From Elusimicrobiota bacterium (GTDB lineage: Bacteria > Elusimicrobiota > Elusimicrobia > UBA1565 > UBA9628), in contig JAHFCE010000024.1 of assembly GCA_023249675.1 (NCBI GenBank), positions 1-46,189 of the forward strand: a stretch of 46,189 bases of DNA, written 5' to 3'. Both the position numbers and the translations under genes were made by a program. Below, in pieces: positions 24,817 to 31,322 of the stretch; positions within the stretch are counted from its first letter, which is position 1, and each line of letters begins with the position of its first letter. The notes under the pieces are model-generated. The model made no database searches, had not been told where the DNA came from, and worked only from the letters and a program-made list of their open reading frames with translations.

Positions 24817-26490
24817 ATGGCCCGACGCCTTCGTCGCACCGCCGCCCTGGGGGCGATCTTTTTCTTGTTTGCCGCGACCGCCGAGCGAGGCGTGCGCATT
24901 CTGTGGGCAGCCGCAGCGCCTCGCGCCGCGGCTGAATCTCCGATTGTCCACGGCACAGGCGGCAGCGCCGTTTCCCCCGCCGCGCTGATCGGCGCCATTC
25001 AGCTTTCGCTTGAATCCGTTCACCTGCCTCCCGGGACGACACCACTCCCGCTGCCCGCAACGCTCCCCGATTCCCACGGCCTGTCGCCGGCGAACTGGGC
25101 TAAGCTGATCCGACTCATTGCGCGCGCGCACAGCGAGCATATTCCCCGTCCCGTTCTGCCGGCCTCCGCCTCTGCCCTCGGCGCCGTTTCTGAAGAGCAG
25201 GCCCTGGACGCGCTGCGCGCGATCAACACGATGCTCGAGGGGGCATCCTCCGAAAGTTTGGACAATCCGCACGAAATCGGCATCCTCTACCAGCGGCTTT
25301 GGGACGGCTTGCAATCCTCGCCTCCGTCTTTTGCCGCCCCGCCGCGCCGCGACTCTCAGCGGCATTGGCAGAGGCATCGTGAGACCATTCTGAACGATGT
25401 GGAGATCCTGCGCTCGAAACTGTCCCGTTACGCAAGTCAACAGGAGGAGGCGATTGGAGTCAGGGCGTTTGAACAGGAGCTGGATAAGAGCAAGGTCTCG
25501 GTTCAGGAGCCGGGATTGGGCAAGGCCGTGATGACCACGGTCGACCGACGTCGAATCATTCGCGTCGTCCACGCGCCCACTGAGTTGTCGCTTCTTTTGA
25601 TCGATGAGTCCGCTGTTTCCAAGAACTCCAGACATCTTCGCCGACTCATCGGCCGGCAATTCTTCGATGCCGGGACGGAGCGCCCGGACGGGCGGAACGG
25701 ACGCGCCACCATAGTGCTGTGGCAGCGGGAAGGCGCAATCGCTTCCATCGAATTCCACGAAAAACCTCGCTTCTGGAGCCGGAGGTGGTGGAAAAGCTAC
25801 TGGGACGCGACCTACAAGACCCCGGACGGCAGCGACATGGTTTTTGGAATCACGATGGGGCTCCTCCAAGGCGCGCTGGCCCTGGGCTTGGGCGAGCTCA
25901 AGTCATCCATGCTGGGAACTCCTCTGGAGTGGACGCCGATTGTCTTTACCATGGGCTTCGGCTTTTTCATCTGCACGTTTGTCAGCACCTATACGAATTG
26001 GACTTATCGCGGCAGCAAAATCAGTCAATTCCTGAAATCGGCGCTCATCAGCCTGGCCTTCGCCTATCCGGTGATCATCTCCACTCAGGGGCTGGGCGCC
26101 GTGGCTCTGACAAGCAGCGGTCTGCTCATGCACGCCCATGTCTTCTCCAATGTGGCGCTCAACAACATGGGCAAGGTCGCTTGGCAGCAGATTCCCGTCA
26201 TCGGTGAAAAACATCGTCAATTCACCGGGAAGTTATTCTGGAAAATCAAGAAGTCCGCCATGGTCAACCAAGGCTTCTACACGATCAATTGGACGCTGCG
26301 CTTGGCCGATCTCCTGGGGATTCCGGGAGGCAGGCTTATTTTCCTTGCCGGTCTGCCGCTGGCCATGATTATTTCTTACTGGTATGCGCGCCGGCACGGC
26401 TTCCCCGAAGCCGCGCACATGCGCGAACTGCCCGCACGTCTGTATCGACGTTGCTGCGCCCTTATGGCTTCGGCGCGGCCTCGCGGCTGA
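24817..26490 (+). CDS. Unknown integral membrane protein
   Basis: 557 residues, not recognised. The start is the ATG preceded by AGGAG; the open frame continues upstream antisense to ygiQ. An N-terminal hydrophobic segment (LGAIFFLFAATAER) may be a signal or anchor. Residues about 45-320 are soluble and presumably periplasmic, with Ala/Pro-rich and helical stretches. From about residue 340 there are four or five membrane helices, including MVFGITMGLLQGALALGLGE, WTPIVFTMGFGFFICTFVS, ALISLAFAYPVIIS and LIFLAGLPLAMIISYWYARR. The conserved-looking loop FVSTYTNWTYRGSK might mark a family. Its 3' end overlaps the convergent small lipoprotein by 29 bases. Confidence 0.75.
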   Translation: MARRLRRTAALGAIFFLFAATAERGVRILWAAAAPRAAAESPIVHGTGGSAVSPAALIGAIQLSLESVHLPPGTTPLPLPATLPDSHGLSPANWAKLIRLIARAHSEHIPRPVLPASASALGAVSEEQALDALRAINTMLEGASSESLDNPHEIGILYQRLWDGLQSSPPSFAAPPRRDSQRHWQRHRETILNDVEILRSKLSRYASQQEEAIGVRAFEQELDKSKVSVQEPGLGKAVMTTVDRRRIIRVVHAPTELSLLLIDESAVSKNSRHLRRLIGRQFFDAGTERPDGRNGRATIVLWQREGAIASIEFHEKPRFWSRRWWKSYWDATYKTPDGSDMVFGITMGLLQGALALGLGELKSSMLGTPLEWTPIVFTMGFGFFICTFVSTYTNWTYRGSKISQFLKSALISLAFAYPVIISTQGLGAVALTSSGLLMHAHVFSNVALNNMGKVAWQQIPVIGEKHRQFTGKLFWKIKKSAMVNQGFYTINWTLRLADLLGIPGGRLIFLAGLPLAMIISYWYARRHGFPEAAHMRELPARLYRRCCALMASARPRG

Positions 26491-26929
26491 ACGCGAGAGA
26501 CGGGGTCCCGTCGGAACCGTAACGCAGGGTCAGGCGCACGATCGCGCCTTCCTCAATGCGCACGAAGCGTTCGCGCGGCTGCAGGGCACCGGGCAGGCGC
26601 GTCCACTCTCCGATCGGCGGCAGGAACCAATATTCAAGACGTACGGGCTGATTCCCCGCGGGAAGCTTCAGACGCGCGCGCTTTTCCTGAGAGCGCAGGC
26701 CCACCGCGGTATGCCCCGCTTCCTGACCATCGACGAACACCTTCGTAAAGGACACGCCCTCATCATCGGCATTCGGCACGGCCTCAATGACGACAGCCTC
26801 AAAATTGGGGTCCTTGACCTCGACGACCGCCACGGGCGGGGGCGGCGGCAGTGGCTTAGGGAATTCCGCCAGGCGCGGCCCGGCGCAGGCCGCGGCGATC
26901 AAGAGGGCCAAAAGCGGGAGGCACTTCAT
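26462..26929 (-). CDS. Small exported protein, putative lipoprotein
   Basis: 155 residues starting MKCLPLLALLIAAACAGPRL: a signal peptide with Cys15 in a weak lipobox (AAAC). A Pro-rich segment (FPKPLPPPPPVAV) follows, then a compact beta-rich domain with FTKVFVDGQEAG and ARLKLPAGNQPVRLEYWF, which resembles PEGA-type surface domains. It overlaps the PPC lipoprotein stop by 4 bases (ATGA), so the two are probably co-expressed in the envelope. Function unknown. Confidence 0.75.
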   Translation of the reverse strand: MKCLPLLALLIAAACAGPRLAEFPKPLPPPPPVAVVEVKDPNFEAVVIEAVPNADDEGVSFTKVFVDGQEAGHTAVGLRSQEKRARLKLPAGNQPVRLEYWFLPPIGEWTRLPGALQPRERFVRIEEGAIVRLTLRYGSDGTPSLAFSREAAPKP

Positions 26930-28488
26930 TTCACACGCACGCGCAGCGAATATTTATCGCGTATGTTGTTTTGCGCGGCGTCGGCCGGCTTCAGCCGTAC
27001 GACGTAGGTCCCGCGATCGAGCTCGCGCTCAATTAAAACCGGCTCGCCGGACTTCGGCGCGGCGGTGGCCGCCACTTCCTTATATTCCTGATCGAATAAG
27101 GTCATCGTCGGCGCGACGTTGATCACGCCGGTGAGTTCGAGCACCACGACGCCCTTCTGATAAAGATTGAACTCGTACCAGTCCTCGTCCCCCTTCGGCG
27201 CGAAATAGCCGTCGACGGACTCTCCGACCTTGAGCGGCTGCGCCGCGGCGCTCGAGTTATTCGGCTCCCACTCGAGCCCCTCCTGCAACGGGATCAGCTT
27301 GCGAACGAGCTGGTAGCTCCGGCGGCTGTCGGACTTCTTTCCGGTCTTCTCCGACACGACAATGTGATAGTCGCCGCCCGTGAGGCCCCAGCCCGTCATG
27401 ACCTCGGGCTGTTCCTTGCCCATATTGTCGATAAACAAGAGCTCGTTGCCCAGACCATCGCGTAGCGACAAGGCCAGGTCCATGTCGGCCAGGCCCGACA
27501 GCTCCGCGCGCAGAAGCTGCTTCGTGTCGCTCGCAGCCGCGACCTTGTACCAGTCCTGGTCTCCCGCAGGCGCGATCGTCCCGGAAATCGAATCAAGGCT
27601 GAGCGGCGTCGCGTCGACGCGCTGGTCGTTCGGCTCGAACTCGGTCGCGCCCTGATACGGCAGCAGCTCGGTCAGCAAATCATACGGCACGTCGGGATTC
27701 CCTGCGTTCTTATACTTCGAGCGTAGCCGCAGCGAAAACTTGCCCGGACCGCGCACGCCGAAGTTGCGCAAGCTCTCGCCCTCGCCGATGCCGCCCGCGT
27801 CAAGCTCCTTAAGCTTGTAGCCGTTCGTGTCGTACACCTCGAGGACCGCGTCCACCTTCGGAACTTCGCTCACATCGATATTGAGCAGGAACAATCCGGT
27901 CTTCGCCACCTCGATCGAATACCAATCCTCTTCAGCGGCCTCCGGGTCGTCGGACAACAGCTGTTTGGCCGGCCAATAATGCCCCTTTGCGAGCCCGCCC
28001 GCCTCGAGGGTCTGCGCCGTCAGCGCTGTGTTATTCGGCTCGCGCTCTCGTCCTGCAGCCGAATCGAGCCTTGTGCACAACTCGTAGACCTGGCTGGGGT
28101 TGTTCGCCTTCTCGTTCTTATTCGCGACAACAAGGTAGTAGACGCCCGGGGACACGCCGAGGTCGAGCAATTGCTCGTCGCCGCCGACGGTGGTCTCATC
28201 GACGCGCTTGAGTTCGCGCCGGTTCTTGTCGAAAAAGGAGAGGACGAAATCCACTTCTTTGATCCCGCCGATCTTGGCCGTCAGCGCCCCCTCGGCCGCA
28301 ACGTCCAGGCGGTACCAGTCCTGGTCTTTCGGGTTACCAATGGTTCCAGTCGCCTTCCCGCCAATTTTGAGAAAAGTTGATTGCTGATACGAGTCGTTTG
28401 GCTCCGCCTCTTTCGATGGTCCGCAGGCAGGAAGCGATAGGAGTGTCAGGCCTATAGTTACTTGAATTAATTGACGGGAAGGGAACAT
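26926..28488 (-). CDS. Lipoprotein with four PPC (pre-peptidase C-terminal) repeats
   Basis: 520 residues. A signal peptide with lipobox LPAC gives Cys22 as the acylated residue. Four repeats follow, each opening with EPN(D/N) at 29, 150, 285 and 408 and each carrying a D-x-D-W-Y or E-x-D-W-Y motif. This is the signature of PPC beta-sandwich domains, which normally hang on secreted proteases but here form the whole protein. A surface or periplasmic binding role is likely. The first 15-16 codons lie inside the RAYT element: residues 10-16 are encoded by its left inverted repeat. The native 5' end appears to have been replaced. It probably was, or still is, downstream of the PBP1A gene on the same strand. 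Confidence 0.85.
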   Translation of the reverse strand: MFPSRQLIQVTIGLTLLSLPACGPSKEAEPNDSYQQSTFLKIGGKATGTIGNPKDQDWYRLDVAAEGALTAKIGGIKEVDFVLSFFDKNRRELKRVDETTVGGDEQLLDLGVSPGVYYLVVANKNEKANNPSQVYELCTRLDSAAGREREPNNTALTAQTLEAGGLAKGHYWPAKQLLSDDPEAAEEDWYSIEVAKTGLFLLNIDVSEVPKVDAVLEVYDTNGYKLKELDAGGIGEGESLRNFGVRGPGKFSLRLRSKYKNAGNPDVPYDLLTELLPYQGATEFEPNDQRVDATPLSLDSISGTIAPAGDQDWYKVAAASDTKQLLRAELSGLADMDLALSLRDGLGNELLFIDNMGKEQPEVMTGWGLTGGDYHIVVSEKTGKKSDSRRSYQLVRKLIPLQEGLEWEPNNSSAAAQPLKVGESVDGYFAPKGDEDWYEFNLYQKGVVVLELTGVINVAPTMTLFDQEYKEVAATAAPKSGEPVLIERELDRGTYVVRLKPADAAQNNIRDKYSLRVRVK

Positions 28489-29300
28489 TTTCGGGGGGTC
28501 AATCGTCTAGTTAGAGTGGGACGACGACCAAGAATACATTATCCCGGCGCGGTCTATCATGCGATGGCCAGGGGTGTCGATGGGAGAGACGTTTTCATCG
28601 ATGACCATGACCGCCATGGATTTCTAAACACTCTGGAGCGCATAAAACGGCAAACAAATACCGTTGTTTATGCCTACTGTCTCATGGGCAACCACTTCCA
28701 CCTCGCAATCAAGGTCGGTCCGGTCGAATTGGCCTCTGTCATGCAAAGATTGCTCACTTGCTATTCAATAACTTTCAACAATCGGCATGCACGTACCGGC
28801 CACCTCTTCCAGGCTCGTTATAAGGCGATCTTATGCCTTAATGACGCCTACCTGGTGGGATTGATCCGCTACATTCATCTAAACCCCGTGCGCGCTGGAC
28901 TGACCATGCGTCCGGATGAGTGGCCGTGGTCAAGCTACAACAATTATCATGAGTCCGGTCTTGATGGCCTGGTCCCATCGCAGCACGACCTCCCAGATTT
29001 CGATCCGTGGAAGACGGGAAAGCAGGAGGACCACTCCACCTTGATTCGCTCCAACATTGCACCTGTGTTGCCACTTGCCGAGATTGGCGCATCGGTATCA
29101 GCGAGAACAGGCATCAGCGTCGGGGAGCTTTGTTCCGGATCGAAACGTCATGCTGTCGTGGCTGCAAAACGACTTCTGGTAGAAGAGGCCGTGAGGAGTG
29201 GCCATCGACTTCTACCCATCGCCAGTTGGCTGGGGTCTACCCTAGGCGCGATTACACACTATCTACGCCAAAGTAATTGACGAAACTATAGGCCTGACAC
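28443..29300. mobile_element. RAYT/IS200-like element with 17-bp terminal inverted repeats
   Basis: GTGTCAGGCCTATAGTT at 28443-28459 is matched exactly by its reverse complement at 29284-29300. A 9-base direct repeat, TAATTGACG, lies just inside each end (28468-28476 and 29274-29282); the right copy contains the transposase stop. The unit holds one gene, the transposase. The right end touches the stop codon of the PBP1A gene and the left end lies in the signal-peptide region of the PPC lipoprotein. It therefore sits precisely between two genes of a minus-strand unit. Confidence 0.8.
28516..29280 (+). CDS. REP-associated tyrosine transposase (IS200-like, Y1 HUH family)
   Basis: 254 residues from GTG 28516, which gives the standard RAYT opening MGRRPRIHYPGAVYHAMARG; an in-frame TTG at 28471 is the alternative. 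The HUH metal site is NHFHL in YCLMGNHFHLAIK. The family motif RYIHLNPVRAG and the WPWSSY segment are both present. These enzymes are single-strand DNA nucleases using one catalytic tyrosine. The C-terminal region (about 185-254) looks like a helical, DnaA-like DNA-binding domain as in longer RAYTs. The gene is intact. Confidence 0.92.
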   Translation: MGRRPRIHYPGAVYHAMARGVDGRDVFIDDHDRHGFLNTLERIKRQTNTVVYAYCLMGNHFHLAIKVGPVELASVMQRLLTCYSITFNNRHARTGHLFQARYKAILCLNDAYLVGLIRYIHLNPVRAGLTMRPDEWPWSSYNNYHESGLDGLVPSQHDLPDFDPWKTGKQEDHSTLIRSNIAPVLPLAEIGASVSARTGISVGELCSGSKRHAVVAAKRLLVEEAVRSGHRLLPIASWLGSTLGAITHYLRQSN

Positions 29301-31322
29301 CTAAAATTCCTTTGTCGGCCTCGACAGGTAGAGCTCCTTGACGAAGGACATCCAGGCGGGGGCGGCGATGGAGCCGCCGGCCTTGCCGGGGGGCATGGCG
29401 CGCATGTCGTCGTGGCCGATCCAGACCGCCGCGGAGAGGTCGGGGGTCACGCCGGCAAACCAGGCATCGCGATAGTCGTTGGTGGTTCCGGTTTTCCCCG
29501 CCGCCGGCACATTGAAGCCCAGGCGGCGGGCGGACGCGTAGGCCGTGCCCTCGGGGCCCAAGACGCCGCGCATCGTTTCGATCATTGTGCGGGCGGTGGT
29601 CGAGGAGAAAACGACAGGCCCCTCAGTTGTCGGAGCGTCGCCTTCGCTTAAAACCTTGCCCTCGCGATCTTCGATGCGGCGCAGCCACCAGGGGCGAACA
29701 GCGCGGCCGCCATTGGCAAAGACGGCGTAGGCGGATGCCATCTGAACGGGCGAAATATCCGCGGTGCCGAGCGCCAAAGACAGATTGCGCGGCAAGCGCT
29801 CGATGGAAACGCCGCTCGCCTTCGACAGCGCATCGAGGACTCGATCGATATCGATTTCCTTGAGAAGCTTGATCGAAACCGAGTTGAGCGACTTCCATAA
29901 GGCGAAGTCAAGGCGCACCTCGCCGTAATACTTGTTGCCGTAATTGTGCGGCGACCACTTGCGGCCTGCGCCGATCGAGTAGGTAACGGGGCTGTCCAAG
30001 AATTTATCTTCCGGCTTGTAGCGACCGCTCTCGAAGGCCTCAGCCCAGACGAAAGGCTTCACCGATGAGCCCATCAAGCGGCGTCCATCGGTCGCGCGGT
30101 CAAGCTGGTTCTGGAAGCTGAAACCGGCGCCGCCGACCAAAGCCAAGAGGGCTCCATTATGCGGGTCCAAAGCCGCGAGCGCGCCTTCGACCGGAGCTTC
30201 CTTGCCGGCGGGCTCGCCGTCCTCATCGGGCTTGGCCGCGGGATCATTCTCCTTCGCGAGGCGCTCGCGCAGGGCGCGCTGGGCGGCTTTTTGCGCCTCA
30301 AGGTCGAAAGTGGTGCGGATCACGAGGCCGCCGCGCAGCAGGCGCTCCTTCGTGTAGGCGCGCAGCATCTGGCGGCGCACAAACTCAACGACATAGGGCG
30401 CCTCGTTGACTCGGGTGCGCCAGAAGGAGACCTCGGGGACGCTTGCACGGCGCTCGTAGCGCTCCCAAAACTCGCTCTCGATGCGGGCAACCGAAGAGTC
30501 CGGAAGAAAGCCGTTCTTAGCCATGCGCTTAAGCACGGTGCGCTGGCGCGGACGCGCGAACTCCGGAGAGTCGAGCGGCGAATATTTGTTCGGGCTCGGA
30601 ATAATGCCGACCATCATCGCGGCCTCGCCGACGTCGAGGGCGGCGGTCGGTTTGTCGAAGTAGTAGCGCGACGCGGACTCGACGCCGAAGGCGCCATGTC
30701 CGAAGTAGGCGAAGTTCAGGTACATCATGAGGATCTGGTCCTTCGTGAATTTCTGCTCGAGCTTGCGCGCGCAGAAGAACTCGAAGATCTTGCGCCCGGC
30801 GGTGCGCTTGCGAGTCGTGAACATCTGCTTGGCCAGCTGCTGAGTCAAAGTCGAGCCGCCCTGGCCGCGGCGCACGCCGGTGAGAGTGACGATGACCGCG
30901 CGGACAGTCGCCTTCCAATCCACGCCGTGATGCTCGTAGAAGTGGGCGTCCTCACTCGCGACGAGCGCCTTTTTGAGGAAGACGGGCAGATCGTCGGAGG
31001 AACGGATGTACTGGCCCTTCTCAACGGAAAATTCGGCGATCAGTCGGTCTTTCACATCGAGGATGCGCGTCGGAGCGGCCGTGACCGACAGCTTCGAGGC
31101 CATATAAGGAACCTCGAAGACCTCATCCTCGGAGAGCAGGTACTCCTCACGGCCCGGAACAGTGAGGTTGAGGTAGTACGCGTCCATCTTTTCGATGATG
31201 GAGCGCTCGAGCTGATGGTAACGCCACCAGCCGGACAGGAGCATACTGCCGATGACGGCGCCGACAGCGAAGACCGCCGCGGCCGCCGCCAGAAGCGCGC
31301 GTCGCATCCAGACCCGGAACAT
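29301..31322 (-). CDS. Class A penicillin-binding protein (PBP1A-type transglycosylase/transpeptidase)
   Basis: 673 residues. An N-terminal membrane anchor (LLAAAAAVFAVGAVIGSML) is followed by a GT51 glycosyltransferase domain with ASEDAHFYEHHGVD and GQGGSTLTQQLAKQ. The transpeptidase has GSSVKPF (catalytic Ser near 420), KSLNS (SxN, about 476) and KTGTT (about 609). It polymerises and crosslinks peptidoglycan in the periplasm. There is no recognisable OB insertion. The stop codon abuts the right end of the RAYT element, so the last residues could differ from the ancestral ones. It diverges from comF across 59 bases. Confidence 0.95.
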   Translation of the reverse strand: MFRVWMRRALLAAAAAVFAVGAVIGSMLLSGWWRYHQLERSIIEKMDAYYLNLTVPGREEYLLSEDEVFEVPYMASKLSVTAAPTRILDVKDRLIAEFSVEKGQYIRSSDDLPVFLKKALVASEDAHFYEHHGVDWKATVRAVIVTLTGVRRGQGGSTLTQQLAKQMFTTRKRTAGRKIFEFFCARKLEQKFTKDQILMMYLNFAYFGHGAFGVESASRYYFDKPTAALDVGEAAMMVGIIPSPNKYSPLDSPEFARPRQRTVLKRMAKNGFLPDSSVARIESEFWERYERRASVPEVSFWRTRVNEAPYVVEFVRRQMLRAYTKERLLRGGLVIRTTFDLEAQKAAQRALRERLAKENDPAAKPDEDGEPAGKEAPVEGALAALDPHNGALLALVGGAGFSFQNQLDRATDGRRLMGSSVKPFVWAEAFESGRYKPEDKFLDSPVTYSIGAGRKWSPHNYGNKYYGEVRLDFALWKSLNSVSIKLLKEIDIDRVLDALSKASGVSIERLPRNLSLALGTADISPVQMASAYAVFANGGRAVRPWWLRRIEDREGKVLSEGDAPTTEGPVVFSSTTARTMIETMRGVLGPEGTAYASARRLGFNVPAAGKTGTTNDYRDAWFAGVTPDLSAAVWIGHDDMRAMPPGKAGGSIAAPAWMSFVKELYLSRPTKEF

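Follow-up and report, generated by a model that had tools for sequence, protein, structure and literature searches.

RAYTs are vertically inherited and their function is unknown (PMC8049555), and REP palindromes are preceded by a conserved tetranucleotide, which is usually GTAG (PMC8266576). The outward promoters of insertion sequences have been reviewed (PMC9208149), and the palindromic elements of Rickettsia are translated in frame within host genes (PMC10969869). The locus described here lies in a window of 46,189 nucleotides (the whole stretch analysed) from an Elusimicrobiota bacterium and resembles RAYT (TnpA-REP) genes with their REP/REPIN palindromes, or REPtrons (PMC8266576, PMC8049555), in its Y1 HUH transposase, in terminal arms common to short palindromes throughout the genome, in linked copies that broadly follow the host tree and in the joint change of arms and transposase. 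Unlike REPtrons, it shows no GTAG tag, its palindromes are single, long, near-perfect hairpins of 66-82 bp, its transposase does not reach the NCBIfam RAYT cutoff, matches number 6-11 in several relatives, and one element end lies within host coding sequence. As with the outward promoters of insertion sequences (PMC9208149), mobile DNA may drive a neighbouring host gene, here through a candidate seen as a frozen motif; unlike those promoters, the candidate control region lies within transposase codons and is conserved genus-wide, and the start codon and signal peptide are element-derived as well. As in Rickettsia (PMC10969869), a palindromic repeat stands in frame in a host gene; however, the Rickettsia elements are inserts within genes, whereas here the start and the N-terminus, and probably the promoter too, come from a transposase-bearing element whose repeat still matches the palindromes of its genome. 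A partial literature search found no precedent for a signal peptide derived from an IS or MITE, which is weak evidence of absence.

From the sequences compared in a genus of uncultured Elusimicrobiota, an old element appears to supply the start codon, most of the secretion signal and probably the promoter of the conserved surface-lipoprotein gene next to it, and this host gene appears to be element-dependent. The features of the locus are as follows.

26462..26929, minus strand: 155-aa ORF (ORF155) 3' of the lipoprotein gene, which travels with the block (synteny in relatives)
26926..28488, minus strand: PPC-domain lipoprotein, 520 aa (PF04151, 9.3e-13)
28423..28442, minus strand: host-encoded remainder of the signal peptide and lipobox Cys (28425-28423)
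28443..28488, minus strand: element-encoded start codon and lipoprotein residues 1-16
28443..29300, plus strand: RAYT-like Y1-transposase element with exact inverted repeats at both ends, at the same site in 13 genus members
28443..28469, plus strand: left repeat arm (17-bp inverted repeat 28443-28459 plus 10 nt), whose minus strand encodes lipoprotein residues ~7-16
28516..29280, plus strand: transposase, 254 aa, with a GTG start, an in-frame TTG at 28471 and the HUH motif NHFH
28528..28543, minus strand: frozen 16-mer GATAATGTATTCTTGG within the transposase gene, a candidate promoter of the lipoprotein, containing the -10-like GATAAT (28538-28543)
28555..28561, minus strand: second frozen block, CATGATA (transposase codons 14-15, invariant in 13/13), which would form the upstream portion of the candidate control region
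29271..29300, plus strand: right repeat arm, identical over 30 nt to one arm of the genomic palindrome L021
29301..31322, minus strand: PBP1A (TIGR02074), whose TAG stop (29301-29303) abuts the element

The transposase matches Pfam Y1_Tnp (PF01797) at 1.1e-9, above the gathering score, and NCBIfam REP_Tyr_transpos (NF047646) at 1.4e-19 with 70.4 bits, which does not reach the curated cutoff of 80. Most relatives have an ATG at the position aligned to its GTG start. The source genome (G000) holds one close copy, and the 6-11 matches of some genus species (unlinked loci L064-L122) are unusual for RAYT-like genes. Cognate palindromes are scattered through the genome and flank the gene, also in relatives, where the arms match as well; the element ends read GGTGTCAGG and lack the GTAG tag, the conserved tetranucleotide before the palindrome. 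The label RAYT given in the preliminary description is reasonable, but not in a strict sense, given the score below the NCBIfam cutoff and the missing tag.

The 17-mer GTGTCAGGCCTATAGTT occurs exactly at 28443-28459 (plus strand) and 29284-29300 (minus strand) and nowhere else in the window, where its chance expectation is 0.04 with up to 3 mismatches allowed, and the terminal arms can be followed over about 30 nt at 87%. The genomic repeat unit is one base longer than the repeat first described (GGTGTCAGG...), the outer bases of the window element being A on the left and C (29301) on the right. Across the source genome, the terminal repeat occurs in 16 inverted pairs, namely 1 full element and 15 short palindromes, a lower bound of at least 15 pairs beyond the full element. 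These near-perfect palindromes of 66-82 bp (14 folded) have arms that vary from copy to copy past the 17-mer yet stay complementary. Their ends read GGTGTCAGGCC (L003-L030; contigs C16, C17, C21, C26, C30, C32, C33, C37, C38, C49), and their location is apparently intergenic, some lying immediately 5' of Shine-Dalgarno-like sites. An Rfam search of 28100-29500 matched no known RNA element. The left arm (28443-28469) is identical over 27 nt to arms of the genomic palindromes L011 and L015; part of the lipoprotein signal peptide is therefore translated from a palindrome arm that recurs genome-wide.

The lipoprotein reading frame (28488..26926, minus strand) begins with an ATG inside the element, and its N-terminus reads MFPSRQLIQVTIGLTLLSLPAC. 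This ATG at 28488 is the sole in-frame ATG, GTG or TTG upstream of the lipobox Cys, no Shine-Dalgarno sequence precedes it, and the Pro at -2 of the lipobox LPAC is unusual. The preliminary description had placed the start and first codons deeper in the element than the repeat, as the ORF coordinates bear out, and had held that removal of the element at its repeat ends leaves no start codon, which is what joining the flanks gives. It had also assigned residues 10-16 (VTIGLTL) to the 17-bp repeat; these residues are in frame with it, but they span 28461-28441, so that residues 10 and 16 lie partly outside the 17-mer.

Among the Elusimicrobia/Elusimicrobiota metagenome assemblies that provided the relatives' contigs, 13 genomes of the genus, source included, proved to encode the lipoprotein. 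The antisense start of a transposase lies directly upstream in 13/13, the repeat arm falls inside the signal peptide in all of them, and each locus (13/13) has an in-frame start within the element. A charged n-region, a hydrophobic core and a lipobox Cys are present in the N-termini of the 13 species, as judged by eye and pattern in genomes that are mostly metagenome assemblies. The repeat end stands 17, 20, 26 or 29 nt from the Cys codon, in the same phase in 12/13; the exception (G010) is likely an indel error, because its PBP1A and transposase are also broken into two frames. In that genome (L038/L098, CP096137), PBP1A, transposase and lipoprotein alike carry frameshifts, suggesting indel errors in the genome. 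In G003 and G006, which have lost the ATG, its role falls to a GTG or TTG located two codons further upstream. The encoded residues track the repeat of each species without any change of frame: LIKNFKGLTL (G004), LFERFESLTL (G018), EFNEFASLTL (G016) and LIQVTIGLTL (source). The element arms are the same and species-specific at both ends in most relatives readable at both, and those of G004, G016 and G018 equal their own species' palindrome arms over about 24-26 nt in a by-eye comparison. Since the arm matches the genomic palindromes of each checked species, the predicted signal peptide changes along with the repeat in each of them. Alignment of orthologous PBP1A-PPC loci, the check proposed for the replaced N-terminus, revealed no element-free relative that shares this N-terminus, in line with the transposase at 13/13 genus loci. 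A recent insertion confined to the source genome was ruled out, as the element is genus-wide. In a further genome (G002), the transposase adjoins PBP1A at a contig end.

Many genomes of other genera of the family and order carry the lipoprotein gene directly 3' of PBP1A with no transposase at the junction. There, the PBP1A stop, a TAGAAT/TAAAAT box, the ATG and the signal peptide are all found within ~50 nt, and the lipoprotein genes have a promoter-like box and an ATG of their own and encode N-termini unrelated to that of the genus. The PBP1A stop either overlaps this -10-like lipoprotein box or lies only just ahead of it (L047, L050, L056, L058 and similar). Because the ATG follows the box within about ten bases, leaderless or short-leader lipoprotein transcripts are suggested in these genera. 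Their PBP1A ends 2 to over 20 residues past an RPTxxF motif, mostly 5-8, whereas the genus PBP1A ends at the element or close to it, with RPT(K/R)EF or RPTRDF, and is shorter than in element-free relatives, mostly by 5-8 aa. Comparison of the PBP1A tail, box and ATG positions leads to the estimate, made from divergent relatives, that the insertion replaced roughly 65-80 bp comprising the last PBP1A codons and the promoter, start and n-region of the lipoprotein gene. The preliminary description had left open whether the secretion signal was replaced or created; given that element-free genera have N-termini of their own, replacement fits better than creation. Beyond that description, the comparison supports an event that would be ancestral to the genus and would also have cut the PBP1A C-terminus. 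One genome that branches within the genus when PBP1A is used for the tree (G011) has neither transposase nor lipoprotein and still has the short PBP1A tail RPTRDF* (L137) typical of element-bearing species, as if the transposase-lipoprotein unit had been lost as one. Moreover, the transposase-lipoprotein-ORF155 block is inverted with respect to PBP1A yet intact in six species (G001, G003, G006, G008, G015 and G016, at loci L093-L097 and L124), a count in which the G001 transposase runs off its contig.

Within the linked transposases, codons 6-9 (AGA ATA CAT TAT) and 14-15 (TAT CAT) are invariant in 13/13 copies, and they are not synonymously frozen in 27 unlinked copies, R6 alone using six codons there. 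Overall, the commonest codon is used about 60% of the time in conserved columns, and invariant columns make up 6/10 of the conserved ones in codons 1-15 vs 1/47 elsewhere (Fisher p 4e-5, a value to be read with species that are not independent and a codon-15 boundary chosen after the data were seen). The freezing persists despite a transposase dS near or above 1, with a dN/dS of about 0.13-0.3 that indicates purifying selection. On the lipoprotein strand, the frozen codons read CATGATA-N11-GATAATGTATTCTTG, and the 16-mer occurs in exactly one copy per genome, always at the lipoprotein locus, even with one mismatch allowed, in the nine lipoprotein-bearing genomes searched. A regulon site was ruled out for this motif owing to its single copy per genome at this locus. 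Because the codons are frozen in linked copies and the 16-mer is found once per genome, a lipoprotein promoter or operator inside the transposase gene is suggested as the best-fitting reading. The earlier proposal that the element possibly brought the promoter gains support from these frozen synonymous codons, as a candidate. A consensus sigma-70 scan of the locus gave no -35/-10 pair and no terminator, and the 11-nt spacing between the two frozen blocks does not fit sigma-70.

These observations make it very probable, in our assessment, that an ancestral insertion took place at the PBP1A-lipoprotein junction and that the lipoprotein has since been expressed from inside the element. A RAYT-like Y1 element would have entered this junction in the ancestor of the genus, with a loss of about 65-80 bp that took the last PBP1A codons and the lipoprotein promoter, start codon and n-region. 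Transcription would most likely proceed from an antisense promoter located in the first ~15 transposase codons (the GATAAT box and the upstream CATGATA), and translation would start at the ATG, GTG or TTG in the transposase leader. Translation of the repeat arm would yield the last part of the n-region and the beginning of the hydrophobic core, with the remainder and the lipobox contributed by the host. The position and frame of the repeat, its conservation in the genus and absence in other genera, the frozen codons and the co-movement of the block can be read in the compared sequences, from which promoter activity, the actual start site and export of the lipoprotein are predicted.

Repeated independent insertions of related elements at one hot spot, each supplying a start, could account for the transposase of G005, which falls outside the other linked ones with moderate support (94/75) and groups with an outgroup copy, as well as for the dS of the linked transposases, which in matched species pairs exceeds that of lipoprotein and PBP1A by a factor of about 1.5-6. 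Such a history is unlikely, since the boundary and the frozen motif are the same in all, the branching of the linked transposases broadly mirrors that of the host genes (most unlinked copies being later radiations), and allele replacement at the occupied site, which like weaker codon bias could underlie the elevated dS, would explain it without new insertions. A single origin of the linked transposases is not rejected (AU p 0.13), with G005 as its weak point, and the lipoprotein tree places the genus as monophyletic (100/100). It is also conceivable that the lipoprotein is not expressed via the element, its 5' end being decayed and the in-frame repeat a coincidence, as 16/24 unlinked elements are open through the repeat end and neither a Shine-Dalgarno sequence nor a consensus promoter is present. 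Openness was accordingly rejected as weak proof of expression, and what these open frames suggest is an element predisposed to donate an N-terminus. The telling evidence is the same phase over variable lengths in 12/13 loci and the start turnover from ATG to GTG or TTG in G003 and G006. With this conserved phase, the indels of 3n over 13 species and a mature protein of 499 aa that is conserved with a dN/dS near or below 0.15, a decayed 5' end is highly improbable.

Instead of a promoter, the frozen codons might represent a peptide (M-I-D-x-A-G-I-M-Y-S-W) encoded on the lipoprotein strand, antisense to and overlapping the transposase, and in some species joined to the lipoprotein as a fusion. 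The blocks are indeed readable as its codons, and the frame is open and fused in G001, G003, G006 and G005; however, it is out of frame or stopped in other species (after MYSWSSSHSN in G000), its residues change from D to G, from G to W and from G to A, and R6 is frozen as well, although its change from AGA to CGA, which never occurs in linked copies, would be silent on both strands. A peptide of this kind is quite unlikely to be the cause of the freezing.

If expression from within the element is correct, loss or excision of the element would silence the lipoprotein, and a host owing the start, the secretion signal and probably the promoter to the element could not drop it without losing a conserved lipoprotein. 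We propose, tentatively and with the balance of likelihood somewhat against it, that host dependence on the element end anchors the transposase, so that transposase and lipoprotein persist, move or vanish together, and the signal peptide is rewritten as the transposase and its repeat family change in sequence. This would offer a testable route to the retention of RAYT-like transposases over millions of years, the reason for which is an open question. The locus would moreover illustrate that a repeat whose changes are driven by the transposase can be translated as a signal peptide, and that frozen synonymous codons apparently keep a promoter in place within a transposase gene.

Beside unlinked element copies, neighbouring genes often keep their own TATAAT-like box and ATG next to the repeat, and such copies usually leave the start of the neighbouring gene intact. 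A TACGAT/TATGAT palindrome in the transposase leader was also considered as the lipoprotein promoter and ranked behind GATAAT, as it is found in unlinked copies too and is degenerate in the window. The leaders of the unlinked transposases have a palindromic -10-like ATCATACGAT in common, which is decayed in the window copy.
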